DNA of 46,806 nucleotides from Xanthomonas arboricola (lineage in GTDB: Bacteria > Pseudomonadota > Gammaproteobacteria > Xanthomonadales > Xanthomonadaceae), in NCBI RefSeq assembly GCF_003353015.1, contig NZ_QREM01000009.1, positions 299,538 through 346,343 on the forward strand, given 5' to 3'. A model generated the notes under the pieces. The model was given only the letters and a program-made list of their open reading frames with translations, did no database searches and was not told the origin of the DNA. Within the stretch, counting starts at the first letter, position 1; every line of letters begins with the position of its first letter. This document shows positions 26,570 through 34,264 of the stretch, piece after piece. Both the position numbers and the translations under genes were made by a program.

Positions 26570-28669
26570 GTGCGTCGCGGTTGTCCTGACCGCACGGGCG
26601 CACTCACTCCTCTGCTCAGCCTCGCCTTGATCGCCCTATGTGTGCCCCAGGCACACAGTGGCGAAGTGCGGCCGAACGGAGTGCCTGACGCCTCCATTGC
26701 CCTTACTCCCATGCAGCAGGCCGAGCACCTACGCGGCCAGCAGCGCTATGCGGATGCCTTGGCCCTTTATCAGCGGGTACTGCGTGCAGACCCACGCGAT
26801 CGCGGCGCCTACACCATGCGTGCGATCACGCTGAGCGACCTCGGTAGCGCACAGCTCGCGGCAGAGGCCGTGTGGCGGCATCCGGACTGGTTTTCGCAGC
26901 AGGAGCGCGAGCGCATCGAAAACGACCGCGTCGCCCGCATGATCGGTTGGGCCAGCGCCGAGCCCATTGATGCTGCGCACCGCTACGCGGAGACCGACCA
27001 GGCCTTGGCCAACGTCGCCCGCATCGAACGCGAATCACCGCCGAAGGCAGCGTGGGAAGCCACCCGGCTGCGTGTCGACAGCCTGGTCGCGCTCAACCAG
27101 CGCCAGCGCCATCGCGACGTGCTGGCCAACTATCAGGCATTGAAGGCGGAAGGCATCGACGTCCCCGCATACGTACTGCCCACGGTCGGCGATTCGCTGA
27201 TGGGCCTGCGCCGCCCGGCCGAGGCCGAGGCGGTGCTCCGGCAAGCCTTGCAGCACAGTCCCGATGACTTCAATACGCAGCTGTTGCTGGGCTATGCGTT
27301 ACTGGAACAGGAGCGCTTCGATCTGGCGATGCCGCTGTTCGAAAAACTCACAACCACGCAGGCACCGTGGCCGCGTCGCAATGGGGCGAGCAGCGGTTAC
27401 GAAAACTGGGATCGCTTCAGCGCAGACATCGCCCTGGCCACCGCACGCTCGGCGGCCAACGACAATCGCGGCGCGGACCGCCTGCTACGCGAGCGCGTGG
27501 CCATCGGCCCCGACAATGCGGAACTGCAGGCGGCACTGGCCTCGATCGAATTCCGCCGTGGTCACCCCGGCAAAGCGCTGCAGCGTGACGCGCTGGCATT
27601 GACGCTGGATCCGCATCAGAAGCAGGCGCGCAGTGGCATGGTCGAAGCACAGCGCGATCTGGATCGCCTGGATCTGGCCGAGGCGACCTTCGCGCCGCTG
27701 CGCAAGGAATATCCGGATGACGCCGGCCTGCAACGGCTGGGTGCTTCGCTGGAACGCCAACGTGGCTGGCAGGTGCATCTGAGCCATGCACGCGGACGCA
27801 GCGATAACGACACCCTGACCAACAGCACCTCGCCGCTGGGCAACGACTTCGGTAGTACGTTGCTGGAAGCCGAATCGCCGTTTCTCGGCCAAGGCTGGCG
27901 TGTGGGTTTGCGTGCACGCGACGATTGGGCCGATTTCCGGGACACGCGCGTGCGCTATCGCAGCTTCTGGCTGGGCACGCATTACCGCTACGACCGGCTC
28001 GATTTCAGTGCTTACGGCGGACGTGCGCTCGACGACTTCGATCGCGATGGCACCGCCTGGGCGCTGGATGCCGGCTGGCGGTTTTCCGATGCCTGGTACG
28101 GCAGCCTGGCCTGGCGCACACGCGATCCGGACGCCTCATTGCAGGCACGCCGTTTCGGCATCACTGGCGACAGCATCGGCGCCGCCCTGCGCTGGACACC
28201 AAACGACGAAAGCCGTTGGGAACTGCAGGCACGCCAGCTGCGCTACAGCGACGGCAATCGGCGCGATCAGCTGGATCTGTCCGGCAGCCAGCGCCTGTGG
28301 GCCAGCCCGCACGTGCTGCTCGATGGCCTGTTCACCGCTTCGGCCGGACGCGCCGAAGACGACCGCGCCGTCAATTACTTCAATCCGCGCCGCAACTCTG
28401 CGGTGGCCGCTGGCGTGCGCATCGATCAGATCGGCTGGCGTCGCTACGACTACGCGTTCCGGCAGCGGCTGGAGGTCACGGTCGGGCCGACCTATCAGTC
28501 CGGCTTCGGCAGCCAGTGGGTGCCCAGCGCGGCGTATCGACACCTGTGGTCGCTGGGCGACGGCAGTGCGCTGAGCTACGGCGTGAGCTGGTCGCGCCCG
28601 GTCTACGACGGTCAGCGCGAACAACAACTTGGATTCGACCTGGATTTCCGATGGGGAGGTACGCCTTGA
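26570..28669 (+). CDS. pgaA: Poly-beta-1,6-N-acetylglucosamine export porin PgaA/HmsH
   Basis: This outer-membrane exporter of the biofilm polysaccharide PNAG has 699 residues. A signal peptide (LTPLLSLALIALCVPQAHS) precedes TPR-type helical repeats (about 45-400, for example AEHLRGQQRYADALALYQRVL). These bind partially deacetylated PNAG in the periplasm. From about residue 415 to the end, alternating aromatic-rich strands such as WRVGLRARDDWADFRD and YRSFWLGTHYRYDRLDFSAYG form a predicted beta barrel. It is clearly shorter than E. coli PgaA (about 807). The GTG at 26570 is the only usable start after an in-frame stop at 26534 that includes the signal peptide; no Shine-Dalgarno is visible. 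Confidence 0.88.
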   Translation: MRRGCPDRTGALTPLLSLALIALCVPQAHSGEVRPNGVPDASIALTPMQQAEHLRGQQRYADALALYQRVLRADPRDRGAYTMRAITLSDLGSAQLAAEAVWRHPDWFSQQERERIENDRVARMIGWASAEPIDAAHRYAETDQALANVARIERESPPKAAWEATRLRVDSLVALNQRQRHRDVLANYQALKAEGIDVPAYVLPTVGDSLMGLRRPAEAEAVLRQALQHSPDDFNTQLLLGYALLEQERFDLAMPLFEKLTTTQAPWPRRNGASSGYENWDRFSADIALATARSAANDNRGADRLLRERVAIGPDNAELQAALASIEFRRGHPGKALQRDALALTLDPHQKQARSGMVEAQRDLDRLDLAEATFAPLRKEYPDDAGLQRLGASLERQRGWQVHLSHARGRSDNDTLTNSTSPLGNDFGSTLLEAESPFLGQGWRVGLRARDDWADFRDTRVRYRSFWLGTHYRYDRLDFSAYGGRALDDFDRDGTAWALDAGWRFSDAWYGSLAWRTRDPDASLQARRFGITGDSIGAALRWTPNDESRWELQARQLRYSDGNRRDQLDLSGSQRLWASPHVLLDGLFTASAGRAEDDRAVNYFNPRRNSAVAAGVRIDQIGWRRYDYAFRQRLEVTVGPTYQSGFGSQWVPSAAYRHLWSLGDGSALSYGVSWSRPVYDGQREQQLGFDLDFRWGGTP

Positions 28670-30549
28670 TCCGCCTGCCGCTGTTGCTGGTCGCCTTGCT
28701 GCTGATGACGTTCGCGTCGTCGGCGCAGGCGGGCCTGCTGGTGCTCAGCTACCACGATGTTCGCGACGACGTCGCCGCCAAGGGCGATCCCGATCGTTAT
28801 GCGGTGTCCACCAGCAACTTCGCCGCGCATCTGGACTGGCTGCGCTCGCACGCCTATCACCCGGTGAGTGTGCAGCAGGTCCTGGATGCACGTGCCGGCA
28901 GGCGCGCCCTGCCCTCCAGGCCGGTGCTACTGACCTTCGACGATGGCTTGCGCAGCGTCTACACGCGTGTGTTCCCCTTATTGCAGGCCTATGGCTATCC
29001 CGCGCTGGTCGCACCGGTCACCAGCTGGGTCGAATTGCCGGCCGACCAGGTGGTGCCCTACGGCCATCGCGATTTCACCCACGATGATTTCGTCACCTGG
29101 GCACAACTGCGCGAAATGCAGGACAGCGGCCTGATCGAAATCGGTTCGCACAGCGACGATCTGCACAAAGGTATCCCCGGCAATCCATTCGGCAATCAGA
29201 CCCCGGCAGCGGTCACCCGTCGTTGGGAAGCGGGCAAGGGCTATGAGAGCGAAGCGGATTATCGCCAGCGCATCCAGACCGATCTGCGCCATAGCCGCGA
29301 CGCCATCGTGGCGCACCTGGGCAAACCGCCGCGCGCCATGGTGTGGCCGTATGCCGCCTACAACCGCGCCAGCAACGCCATTGCCGCGCAACTGGGCATG
29401 ACGCTCAGCTTTGACCTGGAAGGCCGTTCGCACGAAGCCGATATCGGCCAGCAGGGCCGCGACCGCGTGGACGGGCAATCGCTGGCCAGCCTCGGCCGCC
29501 TGTTGCTGTTCAACAACCCCGATGTGCGCGACCTGGCCGGCGAACTGCGACGCGACCTGTCGCGCGATGGCCTGCGTGCGATCCAGATCGATCTGGATTA
29601 CGTCTACGACCCGGACCCGGCGCAGCTGGCACGCAACCTCGACATCCTGGTCCAGCGCGTCAAGGACATCGGCCCCAGTCATGTGTTCCTGCAGGCCTTC
29701 GCCGACCCTGATGGCGATGGCGCAGCCGATGCGCTGTACTTCCCCAACCGGCATCTGCCGATGCGCGCGGATCTGTTCGGGCGTGTGGCCTGGCAGCTGC
29801 GCACCCGTGCCGGCGTGCGCGTCTTCGCCTGGTTGCCGGTGCTGGGCTTCCATCTGCCCGATGCACGGCAGCAGGCCGCGCTGCAGATTCGCGGCAAGGA
29901 CCCGAAGGATGTGCCGCGCCTGGATCCGGGCAACCCGCGCACGCACCAGCTGGTCGCCGACATTTACGAAGACCTGGCTGCGAACACCTACTTCGAAGGC
30001 CTGCTGTTCCATGACGATGCCTACCTGCGCGACGACGAAGTGCCTGGCTACGGCAACGGCGATCCGGCCAGGCGCACGCAACAGCTGATCGGCTTCACCC
30101 AGGAGCTGAAAGCCGCCGCCGAACGCTGGCGCCCCAAGCTGGTGACGGTGCGCAACCTGTTCGCGCAGCCGGTGCTGGAACCGCACAGCGAAGCCTGGTT
30201 CGCGCAGCGCCTGGACGCGTTTGCTTCGGCCTACGACTACACCGCGCTGATGGCGATGCCGTACATGGAGCAGGCCAACGATCCGCAACAGTGGCTGCAG
30301 CAACTGGCACAGCGTGTCGGCCAGCAACCGCATGGTTTGGAGAACACCATTTTCGAACTGCAGACCGTGGACTGGCGCACCGGCAAGCCGCTGCCGGAAG
30401 GCGTGCTGCTCGACCACACCAAGTTGCTCCTGGCTGCGGGCGTGCGCCATCTGGCGTACTACCCCGACGACTTCATCGGCGGCCATCCGTCTCTTCCCGA
30501 AGCGCGCGAGGCCATGTCGGCTCGGCAATTCCCATATATCGAGCGGTAG
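28666..30549 (+). CDS. pgaB: PNAG N-deacetylase / glycoside hydrolase PgaB/HmsF
   Basis: This periplasmic enzyme partly deacetylates PNAG and has an endoglycosidase-like domain. The 627 residues begin with a signal peptide ending SSAQA. The NodB-type domain shows LSYHDV, TFDDG (D92, D93) and GSHSDDLH (H162, H167) for metal binding and catalysis. The C-terminal GH153-type domain includes IQIDLDYVYD and FHDDAYLRDDE, with D450/D451 near the expected catalytic acid. I prefer the TTG at 28666: GGGAGG ends 6 nt before it and it overlaps the pgaA stop as TTGA. The ATG at 28651 overlaps that ribosome site. E. coli PgaB is a lipoprotein, but there is no lipobox cysteine here. Confidence 0.88.
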   Translation: MIRLPLLLVALLLMTFASSAQAGLLVLSYHDVRDDVAAKGDPDRYAVSTSNFAAHLDWLRSHAYHPVSVQQVLDARAGRRALPSRPVLLTFDDGLRSVYTRVFPLLQAYGYPALVAPVTSWVELPADQVVPYGHRDFTHDDFVTWAQLREMQDSGLIEIGSHSDDLHKGIPGNPFGNQTPAAVTRRWEAGKGYESEADYRQRIQTDLRHSRDAIVAHLGKPPRAMVWPYAAYNRASNAIAAQLGMTLSFDLEGRSHEADIGQQGRDRVDGQSLASLGRLLLFNNPDVRDLAGELRRDLSRDGLRAIQIDLDYVYDPDPAQLARNLDILVQRVKDIGPSHVFLQAFADPDGDGAADALYFPNRHLPMRADLFGRVAWQLRTRAGVRVFAWLPVLGFHLPDARQQAALQIRGKDPKDVPRLDPGNPRTHQLVADIYEDLAANTYFEGLLFHDDAYLRDDEVPGYGNGDPARRTQQLIGFTQELKAAAERWRPKLVTVRNLFAQPVLEPHSEAWFAQRLDAFASAYDYTALMAMPYMEQANDPQQWLQQLAQRVGQQPHGLENTIFELQTVDWRTGKPLPEGVLLDHTKLLLAAGVRHLAYYPDDFIGGHPSLPEAREAMSARQFPYIER

Positions 30550-30552
30550 CCG

Positions 30553-31806
30553 ATGACGACCAGCCTCCTGTTGGGCGCCCTGTTCAACTTCGCGTTTTTC
30601 TATCCCATCATCATGGCGTTCTTCTGGATGATCGGAGGCACGTACTACTACCTGCGACGCGAACGCGGCACGCCCGGCCCCGGATCGCCGCCACCGCTGA
30701 CCAGCGAGCCGTTCGTGTCGTTGCTGGTGCCCTGCTACAACGAGGGCAAGCATGTCGGCGAAACCATCGCCGCGATGAGCGCGCAGAACTATCCGGATTT
30801 CGAGATCATCGCCATCAACGATGGCAGCAGCGACAACACCGCCCAGGCGCTCAACGATCTCACCCATCAGCATCCGCGCCTGCGCGTGGTGCATCTGGAA
30901 CAGAACCATGGCAAGGCCAACGCGCTGCGCGTTGGCACGCTGGCGTCGCGCTCGGACTATCTGGTGTGCGTGGATGCCGACGCCATCCTGGACCCGAACG
31001 CCACCCGCTGGATGGTCGGCCACCTGATCTCCGGCCCGCGCGTCGGCGGCGTCACCGGCAATCCGCGCGTGCGCAACCGCACCACGCTGATGGGCCGCAT
31101 GCAGGTGGGCGAATTTTCCGCCATCGTGGGACTGATCAAGCGTGCGCAGCGTGTCTACGGACGCCTGTTCACCGTATCGGGCGTGATCTGCGCGTTCCGG
31201 CGTTCGGCGCTGCACCACGTCGGCTTCTGGTCCGACAACATGGTCACCGAAGACATCGACATCTCCTGGCGTCTGCAGCTGGACGACTGGGATATCCGCT
31301 ACGAGCCCAACGCGCTGTGCTGGATCCTGATGCCGGAGACCTTCCGTGGCCTGTGGATGCAGCGCCTGCGCTGGGCACGCGGCGGCGTGGAAGTGCTGTT
31401 GAGCCATGGCCGCCGCGTGCTGTCCTGGCGCAGCCGCCGCATGTGGGGCGTACTGCTGGAATACGCACTCAGCCTGGCCTGGGCCTACACGATGCTGTTC
31501 ATCATCGTGCTGTGGCTGCTCGGCAAGGCGATGACGCTGCCGCCCCTGCTGTACGTCGACACCATCCTGCCGCGCTGGCATGGGCTGGTGCTGGCGGTGG
31601 TGTGCCTGATGCAGTTCGCCACCAGCCTGGTGATCGAACGCCGCTACGAAAAAGGCCTGGCGCGCCAGTTCTTCTGGGTGATCTGGTATCCGGTCGCCTT
31701 CTGGATGATCGGCATGCTCACTGCCGTCATCGCCTTCCCACGTGCCCTGCTCGCGCGTCGCAGCAAACGCGCCCGCTGGAAAAGCCCCGACCGAGGAATC
31801 CAATGA
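30553..31806 (+). CDS. pgaC: PNAG synthase, family 2 glycosyltransferase PgaC/HmsR
   Basis: This inner-membrane processive N-acetylglucosaminyltransferase polymerises UDP-GlcNAc into PNAG and exports the chain through its own membrane channel. The 417 residues have an N-terminal helix (about 7-33), the GT-A domain with INDGSSD (88-94), D141-A-D143, TEDID (232-236) and QRLRW (270-274), and two or three C-terminal membrane helices. These are the D, DxD, TED and QxxRW motifs of cellulose-synthase-like enzymes. The ATG lies 3 nt after the pgaB stop. Activity of homologues depends on PgaD and cyclic di-GMP. Confidence 0.95.
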   Translation: MTTSLLLGALFNFAFFYPIIMAFFWMIGGTYYYLRRERGTPGPGSPPPLTSEPFVSLLVPCYNEGKHVGETIAAMSAQNYPDFEIIAINDGSSDNTAQALNDLTHQHPRLRVVHLEQNHGKANALRVGTLASRSDYLVCVDADAILDPNATRWMVGHLISGPRVGGVTGNPRVRNRTTLMGRMQVGEFSAIVGLIKRAQRVYGRLFTVSGVICAFRRSALHHVGFWSDNMVTEDIDISWRLQLDDWDIRYEPNALCWILMPETFRGLWMQRLRWARGGVEVLLSHGRRVLSWRSRRMWGVLLEYALSLAWAYTMLFIIVLWLLGKAMTLPPLLYVDTILPRWHGLVLAVVCLMQFATSLVIERRYEKGLARQFFWVIWYPVAFWMIGMLTAVIAFPRALLARRSKRARWKSPDRGIQ

Positions 31807-32249
31807 CACCGCCCATCATCAACCTGCCGCAACGCCTCGGCCGCTCGCGCCGGCTCGCCTACGGCGCCGCCACCGCCGGCGCCTGGATGGTCTACTTCTA
31901 TCTGTGGGCACCACTGGCAACGCTGATCGCCTGGTTCTTCGGCCTGCGCAGCGCCTACATGGAGCTATATCTCAAGCACAACGCGCTGGACCCGTTCGCG
32001 CTGGGCGCGCTGCCGGTGATCGCACTGATGAGCGCCATCACCACCGTCGGCTGGGCCGAGTACAACCGCATCCGCTACGCCAAGGCCGACCGCCGCAAAC
32101 GGCGCCCCACCGTGCCCGAACCGGAAGTCGATCAGCGCCTGGGTGTCCCCGAGCAGCTCGGCAGCCTGCTGCGCCATAGCCGCATCTCGTCGGTGGCGAT
32201 GGACAAGTTTGCAAGACCGGTGGGGGTGCGGGTGGTACGGCATGGGTGA
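31803..32249 (+). CDS. pgaD: PNAG synthesis accessory membrane protein PgaD/HmsS
   Basis: This small 148-residue inner-membrane protein has two hydrophobic helices (about 22-48 and 63-84) and a basic cytoplasmic tail, the layout of PgaD. In E. coli, PgaD and PgaC together bind cyclic di-GMP and form the active synthase. AWMVYFYLWAPLATLIAWFFG and MSAITTVGWAEYNRIRY are the recognisable segments. The start overlaps the pgaC stop as ATGA, so it is the last gene of pgaABCD. The following 121 bp before the convergent HIRAN gene hold no clear terminator. Confidence 0.88.
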   Translation: MTPPIINLPQRLGRSRRLAYGAATAGAWMVYFYLWAPLATLIAWFFGLRSAYMELYLKHNALDPFALGALPVIALMSAITTVGWAEYNRIRYAKADRRKRRPTVPEPEVDQRLGVPEQLGSLLRHSRISSVAMDKFARPVGVRVVRHG

Positions 32250-32370
32250 GCTGGCGGGAGAATAATGATGTAACCCTGCCGATCAAACGGGCTATGCTTG
32301 CACAGAAAAAACTTAGGCCACCCTCAGAGCAGATGGCGGGAGCAAAGCCGCTCAGGTTCTAGCGAATAGC

Positions 32371-33126
32371 TTATGCAATGACGTGCATTGCTTTTGGCAC
32401 GTCAACCAAGGCGCGAAATTCATCCTCACGGCACGAATCGAAATCTTTTGGCCATGGGGCTACTAGCTCGCAAAGCACGCGAAAAGCAAACGGCGCACCG
32501 TCATTAACACGAATGACAGTCACTGTCACCTTGTCTTTCTGTGCTTTGAGTAAAGCACTGAACTCCATGGAAAAATAACGTGGCACGTATCCAATGAATT
32601 GACTATCACCTCCGCGATTTAGACGCAGCGCGTGGCCATCAAATTCATTTTCAGGCTCAGGTACTAATAACAACTGATCCCCGATCGCAAGCTGCAAAAA
32701 TTCTTCACGGGCACTCGGGGATAAATATCGGAAGCCATGAATGAAGAATGATGCTTGATATAGACCACTCTCGTTAATTTCCGGAACTGGAATGAGCTCA
32801 ATTGTGTCTGTACCTCGTAGACCACCGGTCACAGCAAGCTCATCAAAGGCAGATAGCGCTGACGCATCCTTGCCAAGCCAATCCGCGAATGCAGAGAAGT
32901 CAGCTCTATTGCGTGAGATAACCCGATTCTTCAGAAGAGGAAAAAGATCTCTTGAAAAGTAGACACAGTCCAACTTATTCATCCGACCAAAACCGGGGAA
33001 CTGCGGAAACTTCTCCACACCTTTCGTATAGTGAAGTACGTAAGAATCAGGAAGCTTTTCGACACGCGCGACGGGAAACCACGAACGAGTCCTGGGCTCT
33101 TGCAAGGCCAAAAAGATCTTATTCAT
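32371..33126 (-). CDS. HipA-N1/HipS-like domain fused to a HIRAN domain
   Basis: This 251-residue protein has two parts. Residues about 122-220 form a HIRAN domain: LYQASFFIHGFRYLSPSARE, a PEPENEFDGHALRL core and FIGYVPRYFS. HIRAN domains in SMARCA3/Rad5-type proteins bind 3' single-stranded DNA ends. Residues about 15-117 look like the N1 subdomain of HipA: a small beta sheet, YFSRDLFPLLKNRV, FADWLG, then FDELAVTGGLRGTDTIELIP, comparable in layout to the HipA FDLL...G...A...LIP region. HipS, the antitoxin of HipBST, is built from that subdomain. The ATG overlaps the kinase stop as ATGA. Codon use is A+T-richer than in the neighbours. The HipS comparison is mine, by eye, and needs structural testing. 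Confidence 0.7.
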   Translation of the reverse strand: MNKIFLALQEPRTRSWFPVARVEKLPDSYVLHYTKGVEKFPQFPGFGRMNKLDCVYFSRDLFPLLKNRVISRNRADFSAFADWLGKDASALSAFDELAVTGGLRGTDTIELIPVPEINESGLYQASFFIHGFRYLSPSAREEFLQLAIGDQLLLVPEPENEFDGHALRLNRGGDSQFIGYVPRYFSMEFSALLKAQKDKVTVTVIRVNDGAPFAFRVLCELVAPWPKDFDSCREDEFRALVDVPKAMHVIA

Positions 33127-34031
33127 AAATTAACTTCTAATAGCCTTTTCCGGTTTTCAACCAAAACACATACGCCAAATTTCCTACCAACCTCGGTTAT
33201 ATGCGTATCAGGAACCTCCTCAAAAATACCTCGAAAATATTCTTCATCAATTCCTCGAAGTTGTTGCAGCCAATACCTACACTCGCCCTTACAGTACTGA
33301 GAGAATTCTGTGAAGGCCTGAATCGTTGTCAATCGAGACCCACTCTTACTCGCATACAGCTGACTGAGCGCCTTACAGGCATATCCATAGACTCCATGTG
33401 CAGGATTTTTTGCATCAAGCTTCATTTTTCGACGATCGTCCCTGTTCTCTCGCCCAAGGCTAGACGCGTGATCGAATGTAGGGGCCAAATAAACTGCGCC
33501 ATCAGACACCAGTAAGCCCCAATTTTCCTCATGGCGATCCTGGTTTCCAATTAGCACATCTAACATCAGATATCCTGCCATGACGCCGATGGCAGTCATT
33601 GCGCTTGAGGGACGTTCCCAATTAAGTGGCGTCTTGATTTTCTTGAAACTCAATAGAGCAGCGACACGTAATGGGGTGTGAAATTGCCTGCGATCAAAGT
33701 AGGGCTTTCCGGTCTCATCAGAAGCGACTACGCCAATCAACTCGTTCCCCAAGACTAGCCGGCCACCCGGGGGGGTGAAGTTCGTACTACGCACGCCTCG
33801 CGGCTCTTTAAAATGAGCCACACCGACAGCTTCAGCCAAATCGTAGTGAGCGTGAGGTAGCCCAAGTCGTTCGGCCAACGAACAGCTCACTACTTCTGCC
33901 CAGTCCTCCCCGGATTCCGGCCGACGCGCCTTGAAGAGGTATCGACTTTCGTCGTACCAGAACTTCGGCTTCGTTCCTAGCTGCTCGAAATTCTCTAAGA
34001 ATGTCGCATCGACTTGAACAACCTCTAGCAT
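33123..34031 (-). CDS. Minimal HipA/HipT-like serine/threonine kinase
   Basis: This 302-residue protein has a HipA-type kinase core. LGTKPKFW (19-26) may be the nucleotide loop and K34 in RYLFKARR the ATP lysine. WAEVVSCSLAERLGLPHAHY is the family helix. The catalytic loop is IGNQDRHEENWG with D165, and FDHASSLG carries metal-binding D187. It lacks the N-terminal HipA domain and is close in size to HipT and CtkA. No HipB-like DNA-binding gene is adjacent. The ATG at 34031 is chosen because GGAGG lies 5 nt upstream; an in-frame TTG at 34049 is an alternative. The downstream HIRAN gene overlaps by 4 bp. Toxicity and target are unknown. Confidence 0.78.
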   Translation of the reverse strand: MLEVVQVDATFLENFEQLGTKPKFWYDESRYLFKARRPESGEDWAEVVSCSLAERLGLPHAHYDLAEAVGVAHFKEPRGVRSTNFTPPGGRLVLGNELIGVVASDETGKPYFDRRQFHTPLRVAALLSFKKIKTPLNWERPSSAMTAIGVMAGYLMLDVLIGNQDRHEENWGLLVSDGAVYLAPTFDHASSLGRENRDDRRKMKLDAKNPAHGVYGYACKALSQLYASKSGSRLTTIQAFTEFSQYCKGECRYWLQQLRGIDEEYFRGIFEEVPDTHITEVGRKFGVCVLVENRKRLLEVNL

Positions 34032-34138
34032 GTGAGCCTCCGAGGCCAATGCTCCTGCAAGATTACATCCAGGAACGCACGACTCAGTTGCTTACGCGCG
34101 TGCCAACTAGGCCAAGACCGCAGCCGAAACAAACTGGA

Positions 34139-34175
34139 TTGCGCCAACTAGCGCCAGAACATTTAAGTGGCGCAA
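34139..34175. promoter_or_regulatory. Inverted repeat upstream of the kinase gene
   Basis: TTGCGCCA (34139-34146) and TGGCGCAA (34168-34175) are perfect reverse complements 21 bp apart, with a third GCGCCA at 34151-34156. It lies about 108 bp before the kinase start and just after the tRNA-Arg 3' end. It could be an operator for the module or the edge of an insertion. Confidence 0.35.
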
Positions 34176-34190
34176 GCCATTGATTCCTTG

Positions 34191-34264
34191 TGACCCCGGC
34201 CCGATTCGAACGGGCGACCTTCCCCTTAGGAGGGGGACGCTCTATCCAGCTGAGCTACGGGGCC
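34191..34264 (-). tRNA. tRNA-Arg (anticodon CCT)
   Basis: The minus strand folds as a complete cloverleaf. The acceptor GGCCCCG pairs with CGGGGTC, with discriminator A at 34191. The D arm is GCTC/GAGC. The anticodon stem TCCCC/GGGGA encloses the loop CTCCTAA, which reads CCT (codon AGG). The T arm is GCCCG-TTCGAAT-CGGGC. CCA is not encoded. Such tRNA genes often serve as integration sites, and an A+T-richer insert lies directly beyond its 3' end. Confidence 0.95.

Follow-up and report, generated by a model that had tools for sequence, protein, structure and literature searches.

Here, we describe a two-gene module on the minus strand of a 46,806-nucleotide stretch of the Xanthomonas arboricola genome (RefSeq GCF_003353015.1, contig NZ_QREM01000009.1, positions 299,538 to 346,343; hereafter the window). 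On its sequence the pair is a member of hipIN, a family that is already catalogued, also as PADLOC PDC-M03, an outcome for which the initial annotation of this DNA had allowed. We put at roughly 60% the reading that the module is a toxin kinase (HipI) held by the HipS-like domain of its partner (HipN) and freed when the HIRAN domain of that partner binds the DNA ends of phage or damaged DNA. In 2021 Gerdes, Baerentsen and Brodersen defined hipIN as the HipI kinase plus HipN, with the same domain reading and an abortive-infection proposal, and likewise proposed that HipN neutralizes a toxic HipI (PMC8262856). We found no experimental test of hipIN or PDC-M03 in the literature, although a subscription paper could have been missed.

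Anatomy of the kinase and its partner

The module comprises the following features, all on the minus strand:

33123..34031, minus: HipI-type core kinase (PDC-M03A), 302 amino acids (aa), ATG at 34031; open reading frame (ORF) call, Pfam, PADLOC
32371..33126, minus: HipN-type partner (PDC-M03B), 251 aa; ORF call, Pfam, PADLOC, structure model
33123..33126, minus: ATGA, a 4-bp overlap between the stop codon of the kinase and the start codon of the partner; read from the sequence
33957..33986, minus: putative Gly-rich loop of the kinase, residues 16-25 (E-Q-L-G-T-K-P-K-F-W), by analogy with HipA/HipT
33519..33548, minus: catalytic motif GNQDRHEENW of the kinase, residues 162-171, with D165; alignment, n = 89
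33471..33473, minus: D187 of the kinase, predicted metal-binding aspartate; homology, 89/89
32782..33126, minus: HipS/HipA-N1-like domain of the partner, residues 1-115; structure model and relatives
32416..32775, minus: HIRAN domain of the partner, residues 118-237; Pfam, model and profile alignment

Both ORFs (34031-33123 and 33126-32371) and their ATGA overlap are as initially annotated. The kinase matches Pfam HipA_C at an expectation value (E) of 3.1e-9, which exceeds the curated cut-off, and PDC-M03A over nearly its full length (E 1.2e-99); no NCBIfam model matches either protein significantly. The assignment as a HipA-type kinase with D165 and D187 holds throughout the family, both residues being unchanged in all 89 aligned kinases together with G19, K21, K23, K34, N163, R166, H167, N170 and W171. 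Position 20 is threonine in 79 and serine in 10 of these, and by analogy with HipA and HipT it is a possible autophosphorylation site. Like the short Hip families (279-321 aa), the kinase has Hip motifs and no N1 subdomain; in its structure model the alignment to HipA begins at about residue 120. It is likely a toxin, and HipA and E. coli HipT suggest by analogy a tRNA synthetase as candidate substrate. Among kinases with a solved structure the nearest is Helicobacter CtkA, called proinflammatory in its PDB title; it shares 18-20% identity and is perhaps a stray from this kinase group.

In the partner, Pfam places HIRAN at residues 126-220 (E 3.3e-10, exceeding the curated cut-off), in agreement with the earlier estimate of about 122-220, and PDC-M03B matches nearly the full length (E 3.2e-78), adjoining the PDC-M03A match. 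Its best relative, 93% identical, is named Xanthomonas nasturtii. The suggested likeness of the N-terminus to HipA N1 finds no support in the protein's own sequence, residues 1-115 having neither a Pfam match nor a credible PDB sequence match, but it does emerge from the structure model, which predicts a HipS/HipA-N1-like fold, and from relatives: 58 of 116 HipN proteins, the window's own not among them, match Pfam's domain for the HipA N-terminus at E ≤ 1, the best of them at 3e-6. Eight residues of the HipS-like part (W16, Y33, G36, R68, R74, G102, T106 and D107) are invariant in all 116 partners, as are G179 and P182 in the HIRAN part, where N160 is kept in 114, D163 in 113, and residue 183 is arginine in 98 and lysine in 11.

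HIRAN domains have been described as binders of DNA ends (PMC8262856) and are predicted to recognize damaged DNA independently of sequence (PMC11706625). A profile alignment to HLTF pairs an N-x-x-D-x-x-A stretch and a G-[YH] stretch of the two proteins. The HLTF phenylalanine that is linked to duplex binding (PMC8262856) falls, on a reading by eye without a tool, at P212 of the partner (proline in 115/116), and single strands would therefore be favoured, as that paper argued.

The short kinase and the downstream partner with an N-terminal HipS-like and a C-terminal HIRAN domain, without an HTH (helix-turn-helix) protein, show no difference from hipIN in anatomy, the basis of the comparison; in the published Hip tree HipI is a branch of main clade XI. 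PDC-M03, which both adjacent proteins match, is itself a candidate label only. The hipBST system also has a kinase without N1 and an N1-like domain that is encoded separately, but it consists of three genes, including the HTH protein HipB, and its HipS is stand-alone and upstream of HipT, whereas here the HipS-like part is downstream and fused to HIRAN. The earlier claim that HipB is absent agrees with the ORF content: the only further ORFs of at least 70 aa in 32290-34179 are two antisense ones within the genes, and hence no HipB-like gene is seen. HipL has the kinase, HipS-like and HIRAN domains in identical order but as a single polypeptide, whereas the window has two overlapping genes.

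Conservation and carriage by phages

A scan of genome contigs with the kinase alignment found 340 loci, of which the best 80 were kept, and viral contigs gave 67; both sets represent closer relatives, and many of the viral contigs are near-copies. In all 80 genome loci and all 67 viral loci the gene immediately downstream of the kinase is the partner, which excludes chance pairing and bears out the expectation that the two genes are conserved together. A start codon is present at the 4-bp overlap in 33/80 and 15/67, respectively. The reverse survey from HipN/HIRAN, a check proposed with the initial annotation, covered 60 loci with 21 full-length HipN genes, 18 of which have a kinase beside them (16 of 19 without the window's own two entries). 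One of the three loci without a kinase is at a contig edge; the other two (L172 and L175) have more than 1.3 kb of kinase-free sequence upstream. In a spread phylum sample of 398 genomes the HipN profile had matches at E ≤ 0.001 in 29, a good number of which are HIRAN-only.

A different HipS fusion was seen at one locus (L174), where a minus-strand gene at 136-1857 encodes a protein of 573 aa. The beginning of this protein matches the HipS-like domain (positions 6-118 of the HipN profile), and by eye there are also HTH-like stretches and an additional region at its C-terminus. The gene directly follows, and overlaps, a 295-aa kinase-like gene at 1841-2728 with GNDDRHGRN.

Of the 67 viral contigs, 29 have the pair between the gpA and portal genes of P2 type, 4 more have it beside the portal gene, 5 within 1.5 kb of an integrase gene and, by these few probes, 29 elsewhere. 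The gpA-portal place of P2 is a hotspot that holds old, tin and several tested antiviral systems (PMC9122126; PMC9519451). A near-identical pair is found in 21 of 5,426 E. coli genomes, in 22 places that are all chromosomal, and in the one record inspected it is situated between the replication endonuclease and portal genes of a P2-like prophage. The same hotspot of Escherichia phage 899 carries the fused form, HipL, a single 519-aa protein with HipA_C, HipA N-terminal and HIRAN domains in a row, which matches PDC-M03A and then PDC-M03B; HipA_C (E 6.6e-5) falls under its cut-off, and the other two domains are over theirs. At a query coverage of at least 80%, the fused form occurs in 61 of the 5,426 E. 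coli genomes, with an adjacent portal gene in 19 of the 20 matches listed. Among 39 matches, all 31 proteins of at least 500 aa (534-555 aa) share the domain order and GNxDRHxxNW.

The pair adjoins an integrase gene in PM2-type Vibrio phages (two of four near-alike records inspected) and in C. difficile phage phiCDKH02. Matching records number 4 of 50,697 phages by the kinase (E 1e-5) and 6 by the partner (E 0.01), and 7 of 72,556 plasmids by the kinase and 8 by HipN. What we add to the published family is structure-level support for the HipS-like fold, a P2 hotspot that the split form has in common with the fused one, the presence of the pair in PM2-type and C. difficile phages, and the cassette beside the tRNA described below; some of these additions may already be in print.

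A variable interval beside tRNA-Arg

The surroundings of the pair add three features:

32250..34180, no strand: variable interval from the last conserved gene, whose stop codon is near 32248, to the tRNA; homology to 13 relatives, guanine-plus-cytosine (GC) content
34190..34264, minus: tRNA-Arg(CCT), directly upstream of the kinase on the same strand; tRNA call
32317..32337, minus: terminator-like hairpin and T run directly 3' of the partner gene; consensus scan only (6 sites in the region on both strands vs 2.2 expected)

The pair is the sole filling of this interval. Thirteen of 34 other same-genus genomes carry the two flanks near each other on a single contig; homology to them ends at 32247-32260 and restarts at 34173-34190, and none of the 13 has the pair there. 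Their intervals range from about 0.3 kb (G005 and G009) to 13.8 kb (G010). In total the pair is present in 2 of 100 genomes, the window's own included, that is, in 1 of 99 other relatives, a same-genus genome (G032) in which it lies beside tRNA-Val. The GC content is 45-53% across both genes vs 63-69% in the flanks. Low GC and patchy presence make it likely that the pair is a laterally acquired cassette. Of the 77 genome loci long enough to test (3 of the 80 were not), 9 have a tRNA gene on the kinase strand whose end is no more than 600 bp upstream of the kinase, as against 0.75 expected from tRNA density, with seven kinds of tRNA among the nine; for viral contigs the count is 1 of 62. This proximity is consistent with integration at tRNA ends as the route of arrival. 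The window's interval contains no integrase, and no flanking repeat was found; a short direct repeat (34102 and 34143, 81% alike) lies between the tRNA and the kinase.

PADLOC at 1e-8 was applied to 35 of the 48 ORFs in 11 filled intervals of the relatives and gave two matches, the remaining ORFs being RHS, phage, transposase, regulator or unknown genes. One match, in G018 (L297, 683-2325), is an AbiL/AriA-type ATPase gene that forms a two-gene cassette with the gene after it, which encodes 163 aa and has no PADLOC match. The other, in G010 (L292, 12920-13810, minus strand), is a nuclease-like protein of 297 aa, residues 9-138 of which match an Argonaute-associated nuclease profile (E 6e-19); prophage genes share that interval. 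G001 (C9, 539477-591880) has, close to the conserved flank gene and some 52 kb away from the tRNA-side match, a 55-base copy of the tRNA-Arg end, which looks as though the same site held a large island; second copies of the tRNA-Arg end were seen in 10 other relatives. The flanking genes at 26570-32248 resemble, by eye, a pgaABCD/hms exopolysaccharide operon.

Proposed mechanism and alternatives

The initial annotation had read the pair as a HipST-like kinase and antitoxin with a fused DNA sensor. Its genes, domains, predicted folds and adjacency bear scrutiny; toxicity, inhibition and trigger are what we infer from them. HipS contacts HipT directly, close to the active site and Gly-rich loop, and thereby inhibits it, in E. 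coli through a tryptophan (PMC10627512) and in Legionella through other residues (PMC10653801). Because the first domain of HipN has a HipS-type predicted fold and the kinase lacks N1, this domain likely takes the N1 place and keeps the kinase off. As HIRAN sits on the inhibitor, DNA ends would be the natural trigger: ends from phage replication or damage would bind HIRAN and release the kinase, and the freed kinase would cause abortive infection. A parallel exists in Hachiman, where HamA is kept in check by HamB as long as the DNA is intact and is switched on by it when damage occurs (PMC12278908), although HamB is a helicase, HamA a nuclease, and no kinase is involved. HipAD (DS-6, PDC-M66) is likewise a two-gene system of a HipA-type kinase and a non-HipB partner, but that partner is a DUF3037 (and DUF1829) protein and not HipS-HIRAN; it is a tested phage defence with a toxic kinase, which shows that a combination of this kind can protect against phage.

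The strongest competitor, which we nevertheless consider unlikely, is an addiction module, in which the kinase toxin and HipN antitoxin retain prophages and islands without sensing infection and HIRAN only seats HipN on DNA. Carriage by phages, prophages and a few plasmids and the excess of upstream tRNA genes would suit it, and an island-borne HipAB is reported to stabilize its island (PMC8978831). However, the pair sits in a known hotspot for antiviral cargo, its validated sister pair HipAD defends against phage, a DNA-end-binding fold would be odd for a plain antitoxin, and in the window the pair is alone in its interval, with nothing else there to stabilize.

It is less probable still that HipN is an antitoxin and autorepressor in which HIRAN substitutes for HipB as operator binder, solely for transcription control. 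HipB does unite both roles in hipBA (PMC8262856), and the interval has no HipB-like gene and does have the direct repeat upstream of the kinase; yet the end-binding and sequence-independent recognition ascribed to HIRAN, the toxin-first gene order and the fused HipL, which has no separate antitoxin to titrate, all speak against this. Very improbable is a DNA-repair or stress kinase pair, in which HIRAN takes the kinase to damaged DNA so that repair proteins are phosphorylated without cell arrest, as patchy presence and phage carriage ill suit a housekeeping role, even though HIRAN occurs in eukaryotic fork-remodelling proteins (PMC8262856).

The release of a toxin kinase by DNA ends can be extended, at a little under even odds, to hipIN and HipL as one phage-borne immune switch with its inhibitor welded to a DNA-end sensor, in which phage 3' ends or single strands would unplug the active site and a 1.7-kb cassette, split or fused, would move among phage cargo hotspots and tRNA sites. 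If true, a kinase toxin would be gated directly by DNA structure, and persistence kinases would be joined to infection and damage sensing. With the hotspot data, the 2021 proposal becomes open to direct test in laboratory E. coli by means of the small pairs that P2-like prophages already carry, and the fused form offers a one-protein version for structure work.
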